The translations under genes and the position numbers were made by a program. Under the pieces are notes generated by a model. The model was not told the origin of the DNA and did not search any database. It saw only the letters and a program-made list of their open reading frames with translations. A DNA stretch of 33,725 nucleotides from Nitrospirae bacterium RBG_16_64_22. GTDB taxonomy: Bacteria; Nitrospirota; RBG-16-64-22. Position 1 is the stretch's first letter; each line of letters opens with the position of its first letter. This document shows, piece by piece, positions 2,869-8,090 of the stretch. Where the stretch lies: the NCBI GenBank assembly GCA_001803795.1, contig MHEK01000041.1, positions 1 to 33,725 of the forward strand, in the 5' to 3' direction.

Positions 2869-3723
2869 CTATCTTCCCGGAAACGCGGGAAGACCGTTCT
2901 TGGCCGGATGCCGGTGGCGATGAAGAGTGAGGATTTCGCTCGCGACCTCCTCAACCGCCTTTCGCGTGACCTCCAGACGGGTCCAGTCGCAGTGAGTTCT
3001 CAAGACATCTTCATAGTGGGCCAAATCGCCCTCTATCGATTCCGCGTCGGCATAGCCCGAGAGCCCGGCCCGACCGAACCGGTCCAGGCGTTCGCGTCTC
3101 AGATCGCCCAGGCGGACCGGTTCGATCATCAGCGCGTAAACCCGCGAAGGATCGATCGTGTTCAGCATGGCCGGAGGCTCGATTCCTCGCACGATCGGGA
3201 CGTTTCCGACCTTGAGGCCCGCCTGATTGGCCAGATAGATCGACAGCGGCGTCTTGGAGGTGCGCGATACGCCCACGAGAACGACGTCCGCGGCGCCAAG
3301 CGTCGCGGTATTCCGGCCGTCATCGTGCTGGACCGTGAACTCGATCGCCTCGATCCAGCGGAAGTACGACGAGTTGACCCTGTGCAGGAGCCCCGGGACC
3401 CCGCCCGGGACCGTCTCCAGGTATTCGGAGAGACCGAAGAGCAAGGAACCGATGATGTCGACCGCCGGCACGCCCGCCGCCGCCGCTTCGCGCGAGATCT
3501 CCTCGCGCAATTCCATCGAGACGATCGTGTGGACGATCATCCCTCCTTCCTCGCGGGCGCGCCGGGCCACGTCCCGGATTCCTTCGACGGTTCGCACGTT
3601 CGCCACGCGCTCGATCGCGACGCGCCTCCCGGGGAACTGCTGGAGGGCCGCTCGCGTCACCCTCTCGACCGTCTCCCCCGTGGCGTCCGAGACGACGAAA
3701 ACCATGTACTCGCGTTCGCCCAC
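2869..3723 (-). CDS. Pyruvate, phosphate dikinase / PEP synthase regulatory protein (DUF299 family)
   Basis: Proteins of this family are bifunctional: they inactivate PPDK or PEP synthase by ADP-dependent phosphorylation of a threonine and reactivate it by Pi-dependent phosphorolysis. They therefore set flux between pyruvate and phosphoenolpyruvate in the cytoplasm. The N-terminus MVFVVSDATGETVE and the nucleotide-binding P-loop GVSRTSKTPLS (mid-protein) are hallmark motifs, and the 284-residue length is normal. I chose GTG 3723 because GGAGGGGG lies six bases upstream; ATG 3705, six codons later, also fits but has no such site. Whether the target in this organism is PPDK or PEP synthase cannot be told because neither gene is in the window. 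Upstream lies a 137-bp short-tandem inverted repeat that separates it from the previous gene. Confidence 0.9.
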   Translation of the reverse strand: MGEREYMVFVVSDATGETVERVTRAALQQFPGRRVAIERVANVRTVEGIRDVARRAREEGGMIVHTIVSMELREEISREAAAAGVPAVDIIGSLLFGLSEYLETVPGGVPGLLHRVNSSYFRWIEAIEFTVQHDDGRNTATLGAADVVLVGVSRTSKTPLSIYLANQAGLKVGNVPIVRGIEPPAMLNTIDPSRVYALMIEPVRLGDLRRERLDRFGRAGLSGYADAESIEGDLAHYEDVLRTHCDWTRLEVTRKAVEEVASEILTLHRHRHPAKNGLPAFPGR

Positions 3724-3741
3724 GCAGGACCCCCTCCACTT

Positions 3742-3878
3742 GTTCGTAGGGACAGAGGCACAAAGGGGCAAAGGGGCAGAGGGACAGACAGAAGCCCCAC
3801 GCTCCCTTCTCTGCATTTGTGCCTCTGTGCCTCTGTGCCTCTGTGTCCCTGTGCCTCTGTCCCTCTGCCTCTACGAAC
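3742..3878. repeat. Intergenic inverted repeat built of about 8-bp tandem units (TGTGCCTC)
   Basis: The outer ends GTTCGTAG (3742-3749) and CTACGAAC (3871-3878) are exact inverted copies. The right arm contains several near-perfect copies of TGTGCCTC; the left arm carries degenerate copies of the reverse complement (GACAGAGGCA, AAAGGGGCA). The element fills the gap between the small-protein gene and the PPDK regulator, and the stop codon of the former lies within its outer end. No ORF with coding signs is inside it. Confidence 0.85.
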
Positions 3879-4119
3879 CCTTCAGGTCCTCGTCGTTGAA
3901 GTAGAACGAGGAGTCGACGAACTTTTCGACGGAAGGAGCGGACGCCTCGTCCATGCCCCGGATCTCGCTGACGGCCGCGATCGGGACCGCCACCCACTGC
4001 ATTTCCGTCTTCAAGTGCACGGTCTCCTCCGACACCTCGATCAAGACGCCCCGATACGTGATGCCCGACGCCACCACCTCGACTTCCTTTCCCTGAAGAG
4101 CGTAGATCTTGTCGATCAT
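3871..4119 (-). CDS. Small protein of unknown function, possible Sm/SH3-like barrel
   Basis: The 82-residue product begins MIDKIYALQGKEVEVV. The first 55 residues alternate hydrophobic strands and turns (VEVVASGITYRGVLIEVS, then VHLKTEMQWVAVPIAAVSEI), which recalls a small five-stranded Sm-like or SH3-like barrel. This is only a fold impression; I do not recognise the family. A strong GGGAGGGGAG site precedes the ATG. The start overlaps the MATE stop by ATGA, so the two are translationally coupled. The last codons and stop run into the outer end of the 3742-3878 inverted repeat, so the C-terminus may have been changed when the repeat arrived. Confidence 0.7.
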   Translation of the reverse strand: MIDKIYALQGKEVEVVASGITYRGVLIEVSEETVHLKTEMQWVAVPIAAVSEIRGMDEASAPSVEKFVDSSFYFNDEDLKGS

Positions 4120-5495
4120 CTCTCCCCTCCCTGGCTTGGCAAGCCCAGCGAAACCTTCGTGACCAGACCGCGCCGCGAAAGCCGGCGGACGATGAGAGCG
4201 GTCCGGACGGTCCAGTCGACGATCATCGCGCTCCAGACGGCGGCGATCGGCGCTCCCGCGAAAGCGGCGGCCGCCGCGGCCGGAATCCGGACGCCCCACA
4301 TTCCCCCAATGGTGACAATCAGATTATACCTTGTATCTCCCGATCCGCGAAGGGCCGCGGCCAAAAGCAGGGTCAGGGCCAGCGGGACCTGGAGCAGGGC
4401 CACGATCCGAAGATAGAGGATGCCGGGTTCGAGGACGCCGGCGTCGTCCGTAAACGCGCGGATCAGGGGGCCGGGAACGGAGAAGAAGACGACCCCCATC
4501 AAGGCCATGAACGCCACGGCCAGCCATGCCCCTTCCCTCATGACGGCGTTCGCCCGCCTCGCGCGGCCGCCCCCCAGCGCCTGACCCACGAGAGTCGTGA
4601 CGGCGAGTCCCGCGCCAAGGGCCGGCATGAACGAGAAGGCCTCGATCGCGAGACCCACCTGGTGGGCGGCGTATACCGACGTCCCGTACAAGAGGACGAT
4701 CTTCGCGTACGTCATTTGGCCAACTTGCTGAAGGAGGCGGTCGAAGAAAACCGGCAGGCCGACGCGGAACGTCTCCCGGATCATCCCTCCCGATCCCCCG
4801 CGCCACCGGATGAGCCCTCCCTTGAGCGCCAGGACAAAGAGGAACACCGCGGCCGCACCGTCCGAGAGAACGACCGCCAGCGCCGCGCCCCGGACGCCCA
4901 TCGGCTCTATCGTTCCGACGCCGTAGATGAGAGGGATGGCGATAGCGACATGAAGGAGATTCGCCCCGGCGTACGCGATCAGCGGAACGCGCGTGTTCCC
5001 CGCGCCGTGGAAGACAGCCGCCAGGACGGACAAGGCGGCCGTAATGGGGAAGAAGAGGAACAGGAGGCCCAGGTAAGCGGCGGCGAGGTCGACGACGTCG
5101 GGGGCCGCCCCCATCAGACGGGCGACCCACGTCCTCCCAAGGAGCCCCAGGATGGCCAGGACCGCTGCAATCCCGATCCCCGCCGCGAGAAGACGGCCCG
5201 CGACGCCGGCCGCCCGGTCCGGGTCCTTCGCGCCGCGCAGGTGCGCCGTGACGACGGTCGTCCCCGCCGAGATTCCCCAGAGGGCCGTCGTCCAGAGAAA
5301 AACGTGGAGCTGTCCGACGCCCACGCCCGCGATCGCCGAAGCCCCGAGGCGGCCGACAAGGAAGACATCGAGAATCCCGCCCAGCCGGAGGAAAAGGTGA
5401 GAGAGGACGGCCGGCCACGCCAACTTCGCGATGTGGCGGCGAACGCGGCCGGTGTGAAAGAGAGGAGAAAGAAAGGACCCGCGGCGCCGGCTCAC
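4116..5495 (-). CDS. MATE-family multidrug/metabolite efflux transporter
   Basis: The 459-residue protein shows about 12 hydrophobic membrane segments in two similar halves. Family motifs include AWPAVLSHLFLRLGGILDVF in helix 1 and GVGQLHVFLWTTALWGISAG near helix 2, with FHGAGNTRVPL and LRGSGDTRYN at matching positions in the two halves. MATE proteins export drugs or metabolites across the inner membrane using a Na+ or H+ gradient; the substrate here is unknown. The start is GTG 5495, overlapping the anti-sigma stop in GTGA; the open frame upstream belongs to the anti-sigma gene read in another frame. Co-transcription with the ECF sigma/anti-sigma pair suggests it is made with that stress response. 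Confidence 0.88.
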   Translation of the reverse strand: MSRRRGSFLSPLFHTGRVRRHIAKLAWPAVLSHLFLRLGGILDVFLVGRLGASAIAGVGVGQLHVFLWTTALWGISAGTTVVTAHLRGAKDPDRAAGVAGRLLAAGIGIAAVLAILGLLGRTWVARLMGAAPDVVDLAAAYLGLLFLFFPITAALSVLAAVFHGAGNTRVPLIAYAGANLLHVAIAIPLIYGVGTIEPMGVRGAALAVVLSDGAAAVFLFVLALKGGLIRWRGGSGGMIRETFRVGLPVFFDRLLQQVGQMTYAKIVLLYGTSVYAAHQVGLAIEAFSFMPALGAGLAVTTLVGQALGGGRARRANAVMREGAWLAVAFMALMGVVFFSVPGPLIRAFTDDAGVLEPGILYLRIVALLQVPLALTLLLAAALRGSGDTRYNLIVTIGGMWGVRIPAAAAAAFAGAPIAAVWSAMIVDWTVRTALIVRRLSRRGLVTKVSLGLPSQGGER

Positions 5496-6316
5496 CGGTC
5501 GGCCGCGGCAACCGTGACGATCTCGCGCATGCGTTCGTGTGGAAGATCGGAGACGGCCCAGCAGACCCCGCCGCGGGCGTCTTTCCAGGAGACGGCGTTC
5601 CGGCCCTTGACGCGGACGGGCTTCCATCCCTCGCGCCCGATTCCATCGGCGCCCTGCTCGATCATCCCCGACGGCGGGATGAAGAGCGTCACCGGCTGGC
5701 CCTCGACCTCGTAGAGGACGGCCCCGTGCCCCTGGGTCAGAAGGCGGCACATCTGGGCGCCCACCATGCGGCCTCCCTTCGGGCGAAGGTCGGGCACGGG
5801 GACGGGAGAGCCGGCGGCCGCGGAAAGCCACGCGGCCGCGGACTTCGGATCGGACTCGCGGATCCCAAGGTCCAATCCCTTCGCGAACCGCGCGTGCTCG
5901 TCCACGAGCGCCTCCGCCAGGACCGGCTCCACGCCGGACCTGGACCAAACGAGGGTCCCCGCGATCGCGAGAAACCCGATCGCCGCCGCCGCCAGCCACC
6001 CGCTGAATACCCGAGGGGCTCCGCCGCCGGCGATCCGGCTCGACCTGCCGGTCCTTTGCTCCGGAAGGACCGCCGCCGCGGGACGCGCGGCGTCATCGCC
6101 CGGCAGGGAGGCACGGACGCGCTCGGCGAACCCGTATGGGAGCGCCACATCCGCGCATCGCGACCGGACGAGCCTCTTGAGGTCCCGTTCTCTCTCTTCC
6201 GTCGAGCGGCAGGACGGGCATGCGTGAAGATGCTCCGAAAGACGGGCCGATTCTTCCAGCGGGAGTTCGCGGTCGACAAAAGCTGTGATTTGTTCCTGGA
6301 TTTCGCGGCAGTCCAT
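5492..6316 (-). CDS. Transmembrane zinc-finger (ZAS/HC2) anti-sigma factor
   Basis: The 274-residue protein has an N-terminal zinc anti-sigma domain: Cys3 followed by His29-x3-Cys33-x2-Cys36 (motif HLHACPSC). A single membrane segment lies at about 103-125 (GWLAAAAIGFLAIAGTLVW), leaving a C-terminal domain of about 150 residues outside the cytoplasm. The cytoplasmic ZAS domain should hold the neighbouring ECF sigma inactive. RsrA, partner of the related SigR, uses the same Cys/His motif as a thiol redox switch but is soluble, so the membrane anchor is a difference. I chose ATG 6316 (GAGG six bases upstream, family-like N-terminus MDCREI); GTG 6328 overlaps the sigma stop and is possible. The stop overlaps the MATE start in GTGA. 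Confidence 0.85.
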   Translation of the reverse strand: MDCREIQEQITAFVDRELPLEESARLSEHLHACPSCRSTEERERDLKRLVRSRCADVALPYGFAERVRASLPGDDAARPAAAVLPEQRTGRSSRIAGGGAPRVFSGWLAAAAIGFLAIAGTLVWSRSGVEPVLAEALVDEHARFAKGLDLGIRESDPKSAAAWLSAAAGSPVPVPDLRPKGGRMVGAQMCRLLTQGHGAVLYEVEGQPVTLFIPPSGMIEQGADGIGREGWKPVRVKGRNAVSWKDARGGVCWAVSDLPHERMREIVTVAAADR

Positions 6317-6324
6317 CCCCAACC

Positions 6325-6918
6325 TCACGCGCCCGCCGAGAGAGCGCGGACCGGCTTCGCCCGCCTGCGCCTGAGAAGGAACTCGCGCAGGGCGCGCCGG
6401 CCCCGGTGAATCCGGGACATGACCGTCCCGACCGGGACCTGCGTCATCTCGGCGATCTCCTTATACGAGAACTCTTCCACGTCGCACAGAAGAACGGCCG
6501 CCCGGAACTCCGGTGGAAGCGCCCGGAGTCCTTCCTTCAGGTCGCCGTCCAGCATCCCGGCGGAAACCACTTCCTCCGGCGTCGCCGGAAGAGACACGAT
6601 CGCCTGGTCAGCCCGGCTTTCCAGCGTACCCATCGTCGTCTCGTCCAAATCCACCTGCTGGGGCCCGCGAACGCGCTTCCGGTACTCGTTCACGAACGTG
6701 TTCATGAGGATTCGGAAGAGCCAGGCCCGGCAGTTCGTCCCCGGCTCGAAAGAATCGAAGAAGCGGAACGCCCGGAGGACCGTCTCCTGAACGAGATCCT
6801 GGGCATCGGCATCGTTCCCCGTGAGACGAAGCGCCGTCCGGTAGAGCGGCCCCAGGTGCACAAGAGCCTCGGCCTCAAACCGCTCGGAGCGCGACGGAGA
6901 AGCGGACGGATTCGTCAA
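6325..6918 (-). CDS. ECF RNA polymerase sigma factor, SigR-like
   Basis: The protein has 197 residues. Region 2 reads LRLTGNDADAQDLVQETVLRAF, GTNCRAWLFRILMNTFVNEY and RKRVRGPQ, close to actinobacterial SigR and its relatives. Region 4 is ALPPEFRAAVLLCDVEEFSY followed by KEIAEMTQVPVGTVMSRIHR. It directs RNA polymerase to stress promoters when released from the anti-sigma factor encoded directly downstream. I chose TTG 6918 (GAGGGAG upstream); TTG 6948 would lie at or upstream of the predicted transcription start. A GGGAAT-N18-GTT promoter is directly upstream, implying autoregulation. Confidence 0.88.
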   Translation of the reverse strand: MTNPSASPSRSERFEAEALVHLGPLYRTALRLTGNDADAQDLVQETVLRAFRFFDSFEPGTNCRAWLFRILMNTFVNEYRKRVRGPQQVDLDETTMGTLESRADQAIVSLPATPEEVVSAGMLDGDLKEGLRALPPEFRAAVLLCDVEEFSYKEIAEMTQVPVGTVMSRIHRGRRALREFLLRRRRAKPVRALSAGA

Positions 6919-6955
6919 TTGAAAACTCCCTCGATCGTCCGCCCACAAATCCTAG

Positions 6956-6982
6956 AACCGGACGGCCGGCGGAAAAATTCCC
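6956..6982 (-). promoter_or_regulatory. SigR-type ECF promoter (GGGAAT-N18-GTT) before the sigma gene
   Basis: Minus-strand GGGAAT (6982-6977) and GTT (6958-6956) are separated by exactly 18 bp. This is the published consensus for SigR (GGGAAT-N18-GTT). The site lies in the 77-bp gap between osmC-like and the sigma start, the place expected for an autoregulatory promoter, and points at a sigma that looks SigR-like by sequence. Confidence 0.6.
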
Positions 6983-6995
6983 GCTTATAGCTGCC

Positions 6996-7424
6996 TCAGC
7001 CGGGACGGGTCTCGACCTTGATGTCGATCGGGACGGCCTTCCTCAGCATCCCGCCCACCGAACAGTACTTCTCCTGCGAAAGCTCGACCGACCTCCGCGC
7101 GGCTTCCTCGGACAGATCGCGGCCGAAGAAAACGAACCGGACCTCGATCTTCGAGTAGACCCTCGGATGGTCCGCAACCCGCGTCCCCTTGAGGTGAATC
7201 GAGAACCGCGCGACGTCCTGCTTCTTCTTCCGCATGATCGAGACCGCATCCATGGCCGTGCACGTCCCGAACGAAATCAAGAGGAGCGCCATCGGCTTGA
7301 ATCCGGCCCCTTCTCCGCCGTGCTCCGGGGCCGCGTCCATGACAACCTCGCGGCCCTCGGCGTCCCGGCCGATGAACTTCATCCCGGAATCCAGGCTCAC
7401 GTCGACTTCAACGATCTCGTCCAT
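6996..7424 (-). CDS. OsmC-family protein (thiol peroxidase-like)
   Basis: The 142-residue length is normal for OsmC/Ohr/YhfA proteins. The two redox cysteines sit in the family contexts: one in LLISFGTCTAMD (mid-protein) and the other in QEKYCSVGGML near the C-terminus. OsmC proteins reduce organic hydroperoxides using this Cys pair; the YhfA-like branch is less well characterised. GGAGGGATC precedes ATG 7424. It lies 45 bp after the doxX-like gene and immediately before the SigR-type promoter, suggesting a redox-stress neighbourhood. Confidence 0.85.
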   Translation of the reverse strand: MDEIVEVDVSLDSGMKFIGRDAEGREVVMDAAPEHGGEGAGFKPMALLLISFGTCTAMDAVSIMRKKKQDVARFSIHLKGTRVADHPRVYSKIEVRFVFFGRDLSEEAARRSVELSQEKYCSVGGMLRKAVPIDIKVETRPG

Positions 7425-7469
7425 GATCCCTCCGGCGCTCGGAACGCGGACTCCGATGCGGAAATCCCT

Positions 7470-7961
7470 TTACCACAAGATGCTCTTCGGCGCGGCTTTC
7501 TTCAGAAAGGCATCCAGCCCCAGCGCCCGTCCCGCACCCGCCAGGAGGAGGACCGCCTGACAGACGATGAAGAGACGGTTGATCCCCGACGACGCCGGCG
7601 CCGTCCAGCCGCTTGCGAAGTAGAAATTGAGGTTCATGAAGATTCCGACAAGCGCTGCGGCCCGCGTGAGAAGACCGGCCAGGAGCATGGCCCCCACGGC
7701 AATCTCCCCCGTCACGACCAGGTACGAAAACATGTCCGCGTTGGGAAGGGCCGTCTCAACCAGGAACGATTTGTACCAGGCGTGGGGGTTCTTCTCCGCC
7801 CATCCCTTCAGGATGCCCGCCAGGATCGGCTTCGAGAGGAACCCGCCGGCGAGCTTGTTGATCCCCGCCGCGAGGAAGTAATACCCGATGTAGATCCGCA
7901 GGAAGGCGAGGTAGATCATCGACGTCTTCTCGCCGGTGAGGTCTTTGAAGAAACCCGCCAT
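7470..7961 (-). CDS. DoxX-family integral membrane protein
   Basis: The 163-residue product has four hydrophobic segments, starting with LAFLRIYIGYYFLAAGINKL, a typical DoxX helix-1 motif (R-x-x-x-G-x-x-F-x-x-G-x-x-K). DoxX-like proteins are small membrane proteins linked to quinone or thiol redox processes in several bacteria; the exact role is open. I chose ATG 7961 with GGAGGGAG directly upstream; the open frame extends further but through a 42-bp hairpin. It is probably co-transcribed with the OsmC gene 45 bp downstream. Confidence 0.8.
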   Translation of the reverse strand: MAGFFKDLTGEKTSMIYLAFLRIYIGYYFLAAGINKLAGGFLSKPILAGILKGWAEKNPHAWYKSFLVETALPNADMFSYLVVTGEIAVGAMLLAGLLTRAAALVGIFMNLNFYFASGWTAPASSGINRLFIVCQAVLLLAGAGRALGLDAFLKKAAPKSILW

Positions 7962-7986: not shown

Positions 7987-8028
7987 GTGCGCCTTGCCCC
8001 CGCCCCTTGGGGCGGGGGCAAGGCGCAC
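7987..8028. repeat. Perfect 20-bp inverted repeat (GC-rich hairpin)
   Basis: GTGCGCCTTGCCCCCGCCCC is followed by TT and its exact reverse complement. The hairpin lies in the presumed 5' leader of the doxX-like gene, 26 bases before its ATG. Neither side has a T-run, so it is not a standard terminator. It could be a REP-like element or the end of a small mobile element, and it would form a very stable RNA structure. Confidence 0.8.
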
Positions 8029-8062: not shown

Positions 8063-8090
8063 AGAACCCCGCCTTTCAAGGCGGGGTTCT
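8063..8090. repeat. Perfect 13-bp inverted repeat (AGAACCCCGCCTT/AAGGCGGGGTTCT)
   Basis: Two 13-bp arms are separated by TC, with no T-run on either strand. It lies 34 bp from the 20-bp hairpin. Hairpins of this AACCCCGCC type occur near the ends of IS200/IS605-like elements and their non-coding derivatives, so the pair may be a transposon remnant. No transposase is present. Confidence 0.7.

Follow-up and report, generated by a model that had tools for sequence, protein, structure and literature searches.

The 33,725-nucleotide stretch analyzed here (the window; contig MHEK01000041.1 of Nitrospirae bacterium RBG_16_64_22, positions 1 to 33,725) contains a gene cluster encoding an extracytoplasmic function (ECF) sigma factor related to SigR, a membrane-anchored zinc anti-sigma factor, and a MATE family exporter. 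SigR-type sigma factors are well known as cytoplasmic regulators of thiol stress that are controlled by soluble anti-sigma factors. The most parsimonious account of the present cluster is that it encodes an envelope-sensing, autoregulated sigma/anti-sigma switch whose operon includes an exporter, a reading to which we assign a probability of roughly 0.55. In the proposed mechanism, the cytoplasmic zinc domain of the anti-sigma factor would hold the sigma factor at the inner membrane, and the outer domain, which has a predicted fold resembling the C-terminal domain of RseB/MucB, would sense or gate an envelope signal. Release of the sigma factor would most likely follow from two proteolytic steps, the last of them carried out by the site-2 protease RseP. 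Once free, the sigma factor would recognize the sequence GGGAAT-N18-GTT before its own gene, leading to the production of more sigma factor, anti-sigma factor, MATE exporter, and an 82-amino acid protein; we infer that export is the output of the switch. The features on which this account is built, namely the gene order, the gene overlaps, the membrane span, the zinc ligands, the conserved promoter motif, and an RseP homologue, are read directly from the sequence.

Operon organization and the sigma factor promoter

The genes of the cluster are all encoded on the minus strand, in the transcription order DoxX, OsmC, sigma factor, anti-sigma factor, MATE exporter, 82-amino acid protein and, further on, a kinase-pyrophosphorylase. 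The sigma factor (positions 6325–6918, 197 amino acids) contains the Pfam domains Sigma70_r2 and r4_2; its reading frame is open to 6948, and the TTG start at 6918 is preceded by GGGAG. The anti-sigma gene (5492–6328) encodes a zf-HC2 protein with a GTG start at 6328 and an alternative ATG at 6316. The exporter (4116–5495, GTG start at 5495) matches Pfam MatE at 1.9e-57 and scores above the cut-off of TIGR00797, and the 82-amino acid protein (3871–4119) has a weak MM0924-like match (20.5 bits, cut-off 45). Because the sigma/anti-sigma, anti-sigma/MATE, and MATE/82-amino acid gene junctions each overlap by 4 nucleotides, the four genes form a single operon, which places the exporter within the module as proposed in the preliminary description of this DNA. 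That description had also placed the genes from DoxX to MATE (approximately 4116–7961) on one strand with small gaps or overlaps, in agreement with distances of 45 nucleotides from DoxX to OsmC and 77 nucleotides from OsmC to the sigma gene.

The two remaining genomes of the genus (loci L039 and L040) have the same order from DoxX through MATE, indicating that the arrangement is not due to chance. In what follows, G000 denotes the source genome of the window (118 contigs), G001 and G002 denote the sister genomes of the same genus, and the window itself is locus L009. Among named relatives, the closest are a groundwater Nitrospirae metagenome-assembled genome (MAG) and a Hainich Nitrospiria MAG.

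A putative SigR-type promoter, GGGAAT-N18-GTT, is located between osmC and the sigma gene (6956–6982, minus strand), and this is the single occurrence of the motif in the window. Simple arithmetic from the 23 sites in the genome, both strands included, gives a chance expectation of approximately 0.00025 for the 77-nucleotide gap. The site is present in both sister genomes (three of three species of the genus), and the same elements with a spacing of 18 or 19 are found upstream of the sigma gene in three of four more distant Nitrospirota (L012, L013, and L014; not L015). A scan of the 300 bases before the sigma gene, allowing spacings of 12–26, was also carried out at 77 of 80 related loci (L039, L040, and L116 were excluded); the elements were found there with spacings of 18 (one locus), 19 (four loci), and 22 (one locus) and with no other spacing. 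Since the motif is rare by chance in the gap, is kept in the sister genomes, and recurs before distant sigma genes, it is very probable that the sigma factor uses a SigR-type promoter and controls its own gene.

The same motif was of little use for identifying a wider regulon. The preliminary description had called for a search for genome-wide enrichment, and no clear enrichment was seen: when GGGAAT-N10..26-GTT was counted, G000 contained 23 sites at N18 versus 15.9 per spacing (270 in total), G001 contained 20 versus 16.8 (285 in total), and G002 contained 23 versus 19.5 (331 in total), at most a slight excess. Inspection of the reading frames surrounding all 23 sites in G000 placed most of them inside long open frames. 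Three (L185, L189, and L191) lie 60–260 nucleotides before a gene, and only one site besides that of the sigma gene is promoter-like (contig C101, 19114). The stricter pattern GGAA-N18-GGTTCT matched seven times in G000, compared to six times in a backwards control, and two of the matches are intergenic (the sigma site and C101:19114). The motif was rejected as a genome-wide regulon finder. Thioredoxin genes downstream of the motif, for which the preliminary description had also proposed a check, were not found: neither GGGAAT nor GGAAT forms occur near any of the four thioredoxin-family loci, and one of these loci (L288) has a single GGAAC-N20-GTT.

The second promoter-like site (G000:C101:19114–19140; L195:1415–1441) reads GGGAAT-N18-GTTCT and is followed by AGGAGG and a start codon approximately 46 nucleotides on. 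The gene behind it encodes a secreted protein of 416 amino acids that weakly resembles YtkA-like proteins. The gene is not conserved together with its promoter in the sister genomes: G001 matches only the C-terminal part (77 residues) and G002 has nothing comparable.

The sigma factor and its membrane-tethered anti-sigma factor

The relationship of the sigma factor to SigR is apparent from profile models, structures, and phylogeny. The best NCBIfam model is TIGR02947 (SigH of actinobacteria) at 182.3 bits, under its cut-off of 251.55 and ahead of a runner-up at 147, and the best solved relative is Mycobacterium tuberculosis SigH (5zx2, 165 bits). The TIGR02947 cut-off is exceeded in none of 395 Nitrospirota genomes, and scores above 160 bits occur in six of them, namely the three species of the genus plus three from family f3. 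In a quick tree built from 55 of 128 rows, this protein falls within a 40-row superclade (Shimodaira–Hasegawa-like approximate likelihood ratio test, SH-aLRT, 99) that excludes SigE, SigW, RpoE, and AlgU, and stands apart from an 18-row clade that contains M. tuberculosis SigH (SH-aLRT 89). By this tree the sigma factor is SigR-related and appears to lie outside the actinobacterial SigR clade. PMC7406223 describes the AS12 anti-sigma factors as all actinobacterial and the remaining ECF12 sigma factors as having none nearby, and ECF270 and ECF271 are described in PMC8999054 as groups with zinc anti-sigma factors in Acidobacteria and Chloroflexi.

The anti-sigma factor has the architecture given in the preliminary description, namely an HxxxCxxC zinc motif, a membrane segment, and a large outer domain. 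Alignments identify the zinc ligands as C7, H33, C37, and C40 (CHCC), with the motif reading HLHACPSC and a distance of 26 residues from C7 to H33, as from Cys11 to His37 in RsrA. The score against the RsrA model TIGR03988 is 48.2 bits, under the cut-off of 62.5. The protein contains one hydrophobic segment that peaks at residues 109–127 (Kyte-Doolittle 1.82) and is followed by about 149 residues; hydropathy and the structural model together place a single span at about residues 109–129, between the sigma-binding part and an extracytoplasmic domain at approximately residues 131–278.

The CHCC set is not diagnostic of redox sensing, which the preliminary description had read from the architecture. 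Thirty loci of 53 zf-HC2 matches in the phylum were examined, and one (L161) was dropped as it has no HxxxCxxC in frame; all four ligands are present in 26 of the 29 proteins scored, four of which (L148, L151, L152, and L155) are the anti-sigma factor of the window, its orthologues, or close relatives. Moreover, RsiW is a membrane anti-sigma factor with the same CHCC set that keeps SigW bound when oxidized (PMC5358783). Because RsrA and RsiW share the ligands and differ in their response to oxidation, the motif cannot decide the mechanism, and it was rejected as a sign of redox sensing. The contrast drawn earlier with soluble RsrA is correct, and its reach is limited, since membrane zinc anti-sigma factors are common; the motif is reported in about 48% of membrane-bound anti-sigma factors (PMC7406223).

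The distribution of the membrane tether was assessed by classifying 85 loci as soluble or membrane-spanning with a simple hydropathy rule. All 71 loci from Actinomycetota (69) and Acidobacteriota (2) at which a zinc anti-sigma factor was found have a soluble one. All eight such loci from Nitrospirota and Zixibacteria (the window, the two sister species, L012–L015, and the Zixibacterium locus L043) have a membrane-spanning protein that retains the four zinc ligands. The remaining six were scored as having no zinc anti-sigma factor; L116 is a miss of the script, and L055, L061, L062, L070, and L084 are perhaps contig ends or true absences. Among other Nitrospirota sigma factors of the superclade, short soluble zinc anti-sigma factors occur at L125, L126, L128, L129, L131, L132, and L134, and membrane anti-sigma factors occur at L127, L130, L133, L136, and L138. 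At L135 and L137 the script found no anti-sigma factor, although a match was later located next to both sigma genes (G126:C12 and G118:C7). This pattern suggests that tethering changed more than once in the superclade, or that the tree is too poorly resolved to say.

The outer domain provides a useful lead to function. Structural models were obtained for the whole protein (mean predicted local distance difference test, pLDDT, 52) and for the domain alone (mean pLDDT 67, predicted template modeling score 0.70). In comparisons of these two models with known structures, the best rows by Z-score are the C-terminal domain of RseB/MucB, at 8.1 (root-mean-square deviation 3.4, 92 residues aligned) and 7.2 (4.1, 94 aligned), although the many RseB/MucB rows represent two proteins that have been solved repeatedly and do not count as independent support. 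The next unrelated rows score 4.9 and 4.7, except for TM1622 at 6.8 and 6.7. The domain is predicted to resemble that of RseB/MucB, a resemblance that would favor sensing of the envelope and release by proteolysis. In the known system, RseA is bound by RseB on the outer side of the membrane, and cleavage of RseA by DegS needs this binding to be disrupted (PMC8103513). The same source gives proteolysis as the most frequent release route of membrane-bound anti-sigma factors, and the genome encodes a member of the RseP family (TIGR00054, 195.6 bits, cut-off 147.55). A Pfam search of the outer domain returned no domain even at E 1.

Variation at this end of the protein was observed in related anti-sigma factors. 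Six Nitrospirota membrane zinc anti-sigma factors among 23 matches examined (L261–L266, in G281, G126, G156, G118, G369, and G130) end in an extracytoplasmic CxxCH, with the variants CLICH, CQICH, CVVCH, CLLCH, CVICH, and CHICH, and five of the six were found adjoining a SigR-like sigma segment. The motif is as expected for a sensor with covalently bound heme c; a literature search on heme c anti-sigma factors gave none in titles. In another relative (L181:873–2138, genome G003), Pfam assigns the sensor part to the DsrE/DsrF-like family (PF02635), and the gene that follows codes for another DsrE-like protein, one that begins with a signal-like sequence, so that sensor and neighbor share a sulfur-handling family.

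Alternative mechanisms and known systems

Several of our own results weigh against an envelope-sensing switch. RseP is also present in 14 of 14 control genomes and is near-universal, so its presence says little. The soluble zinc anti-sigma factors among Nitrospirota relatives in the superclade indicate that a related sigma factor need not be controlled at the membrane, and there are few convincing motif targets apart from the sigma factor's own gene. The models of the outer domain are of middling confidence and derive from a four-row alignment; the Foldseek E-values are at best 0.0026 and 0.0053 and never below 0.001, so the fold match alone is not significant. Homology to RseB in sequence is not supported, as a profile comparison with Escherichia coli RseB gave a probability of 2.8% and aligned the wrong half.

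An unlikely alternative is that the protein functions as an RsrA-like thiol switch on a tether, in which a C7–C37 or C7–C40 disulfide would expel zinc and free the sigma factor in the cytoplasm, the membrane part would serve only for localization, and OsmC, DoxX, and MATE would be the detoxification output. This fits the position of the sigma factor in the superclade and the RsrA spacing of the ligands, as well as the requirement for the N-terminal cysteine in the oxidative release of RsrA (PMC4960319), the redox ECF control of DoxX genes in Haemophilus and Neisseria (PMC7907618), and the TlpA-like genes that adjoin related sigma genes in Acidobacteria. However, the ligand set is shared by nearly all zf-HC2 proteins scored and by the insensitive RsiW, the four thioredoxin-family loci lack the motif, and the genome shows no clear excess of it. 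Furthermore, DoxX and OsmC, which the preliminary description had also treated as output, lie upstream of the sigma promoter, and a search for a SigR-type site before doxX found none in the three species. A redox account is a weak possibility that draws on kinship and neighbors, and each test applied here was negative or uninformative. It is very improbable that the thiol sensor is instead extracytoplasmic, with a C194–C256 disulfide that follows the envelope redox state and gates sigma release. Both cysteines are kept in the three genus members and lie at strands of the predicted model, C194 is common to L133 and L136, and the cousins carry CxxCH, or in one case a DsrE-like domain, at the end of the same domain. 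However, L012, L014, and L043 lack the pair, and the genus members are close relatives whose conservation says little. A two-compartment sensor, in which either a cytoplasmic RsrA-like zinc/thiol switch or the outer RseB-like domain would release the sigma factor into one regulon, with the CxxCH of the cousins as a heme-based redox or gas input, is considered improbable; if true, cytoplasmic disulfide stress and envelope damage would feed a single regulon.

The role of DoxX and OsmC is a separate question. Because the sigma promoter separates OsmC from the sigma gene, DoxX and OsmC are best described as conserved neighbors of the sigma transcription unit; these neighbors may act in the same stress. 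It is possible, if somewhat doubtful, that they constitute a module of their own and that the sigma operon is an unrelated neighbor kept by descent, an arrangement compatible with the envelope-sensing switch. Consistent with this, the operon has its own promoter, no DoxX or OsmC was recognized beside the related sigma genes in L178–L181 and L043 (frames judged by eye), and the DoxX-OsmC-sigma order is seen within one genus only. On the other hand, the order is kept in all three species despite differing flanking genes, and both proteins belong to families that occur in the redox regulons of other organisms.

Comparison with known systems suggests that the arrangement is mostly a variation on established themes. 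Similar to SigR-RsrA of Streptomyces and SigH-RshA of Mycobacterium (ECF12), the cluster combines a related sigma factor, four identically spaced zinc ligands (Cys11, His37, Cys41, and Cys44 in RsrA), and GGGAAT-N18/19-GTT before the sigma gene. In contrast to these systems, the anti-sigma factor has a span and an outer domain, the sigma factor falls outside the actinobacterial clade in the quick tree, and no thioredoxin-type regulon was found. SigW-RsiW of Bacillus subtilis likewise has a membrane anti-sigma factor with a CHCC zinc domain, with proteolytic release likely here too, whereas SigW belongs to another group outside the superclade. RpoE-RseA-RseB and AlgU-MucA-MucB include the RseB/MucB C-terminal domain that the outer domain is predicted to resemble; here the outer domain is part of the anti-sigma polypeptide, a zinc domain is present, the sigma factor is of another group, and homology is not seen by sequence. 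RpoE2 of Haemophilus influenzae and SigE of Neisseria are also ECF sigma factors associated with a DoxX gene, although the Haemophilus system has a short cytoplasmic anti-sigma factor and DoxX as a measured target, and here DoxX is only a neighbor. Judging by titles and abstract openings, the literature on membrane-anchored SigR-type systems, on OsmC with DoxX and an anti-sigma factor, and on RseB with zinc anti-sigma factors names no such case. What is unusual is the pairing of a membrane zinc anti-sigma factor with a SigR-type sigma factor and promoter and a predicted RseB-like domain. Membrane-held SigR relatives outside Actinobacteria would show the same kind of sigma factor and promoter rewired to an envelope signal, and close pairs would make it testable what decides redox sensing by CHCC zinc anti-sigma factors.

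Flanking features and related loci

The DoxX/DoxD-family membrane protein (7470–7961) scores above the cut-offs of both Pfam DoxD and DoxX. The OsmC-family protein (6996–7424; Pfam OsmC) has two cysteines (FGTCTAMD and KYCSVGG) and is putatively YhfA-like; it scores 102 bits against PRK10738, a YhfA-like model, under the cut-off of 138. The kinase-pyrophosphorylase gene (2869–3816, minus strand) lies beyond the 82-amino acid gene.

At related loci, soluble anti-sigma genes in L128, L129, and L132 are followed by a 261-amino acid methyltransferase-like gene (identity judged by eye). At L041:4038–5458 and L055:5001–6144, a TlpA-like thioredoxin gene comes after an acidobacterial SigR-like sigma gene; a short soluble zinc anti-sigma gene lies between the two in L041, and none was found in L055. 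Within the window, low-complexity repeats that look like inverted repeats (CAGAGGCACAGAGG type) occupy approximately 3749–3879, ahead of the kinase-pyrophosphorylase gene. Two strong inverted repeats lie between doxX and a divergent regulator gene (7987–8028 and 8064–8089); the longer is a 42-nucleotide palindrome, and the shorter is largely present in L039 too.

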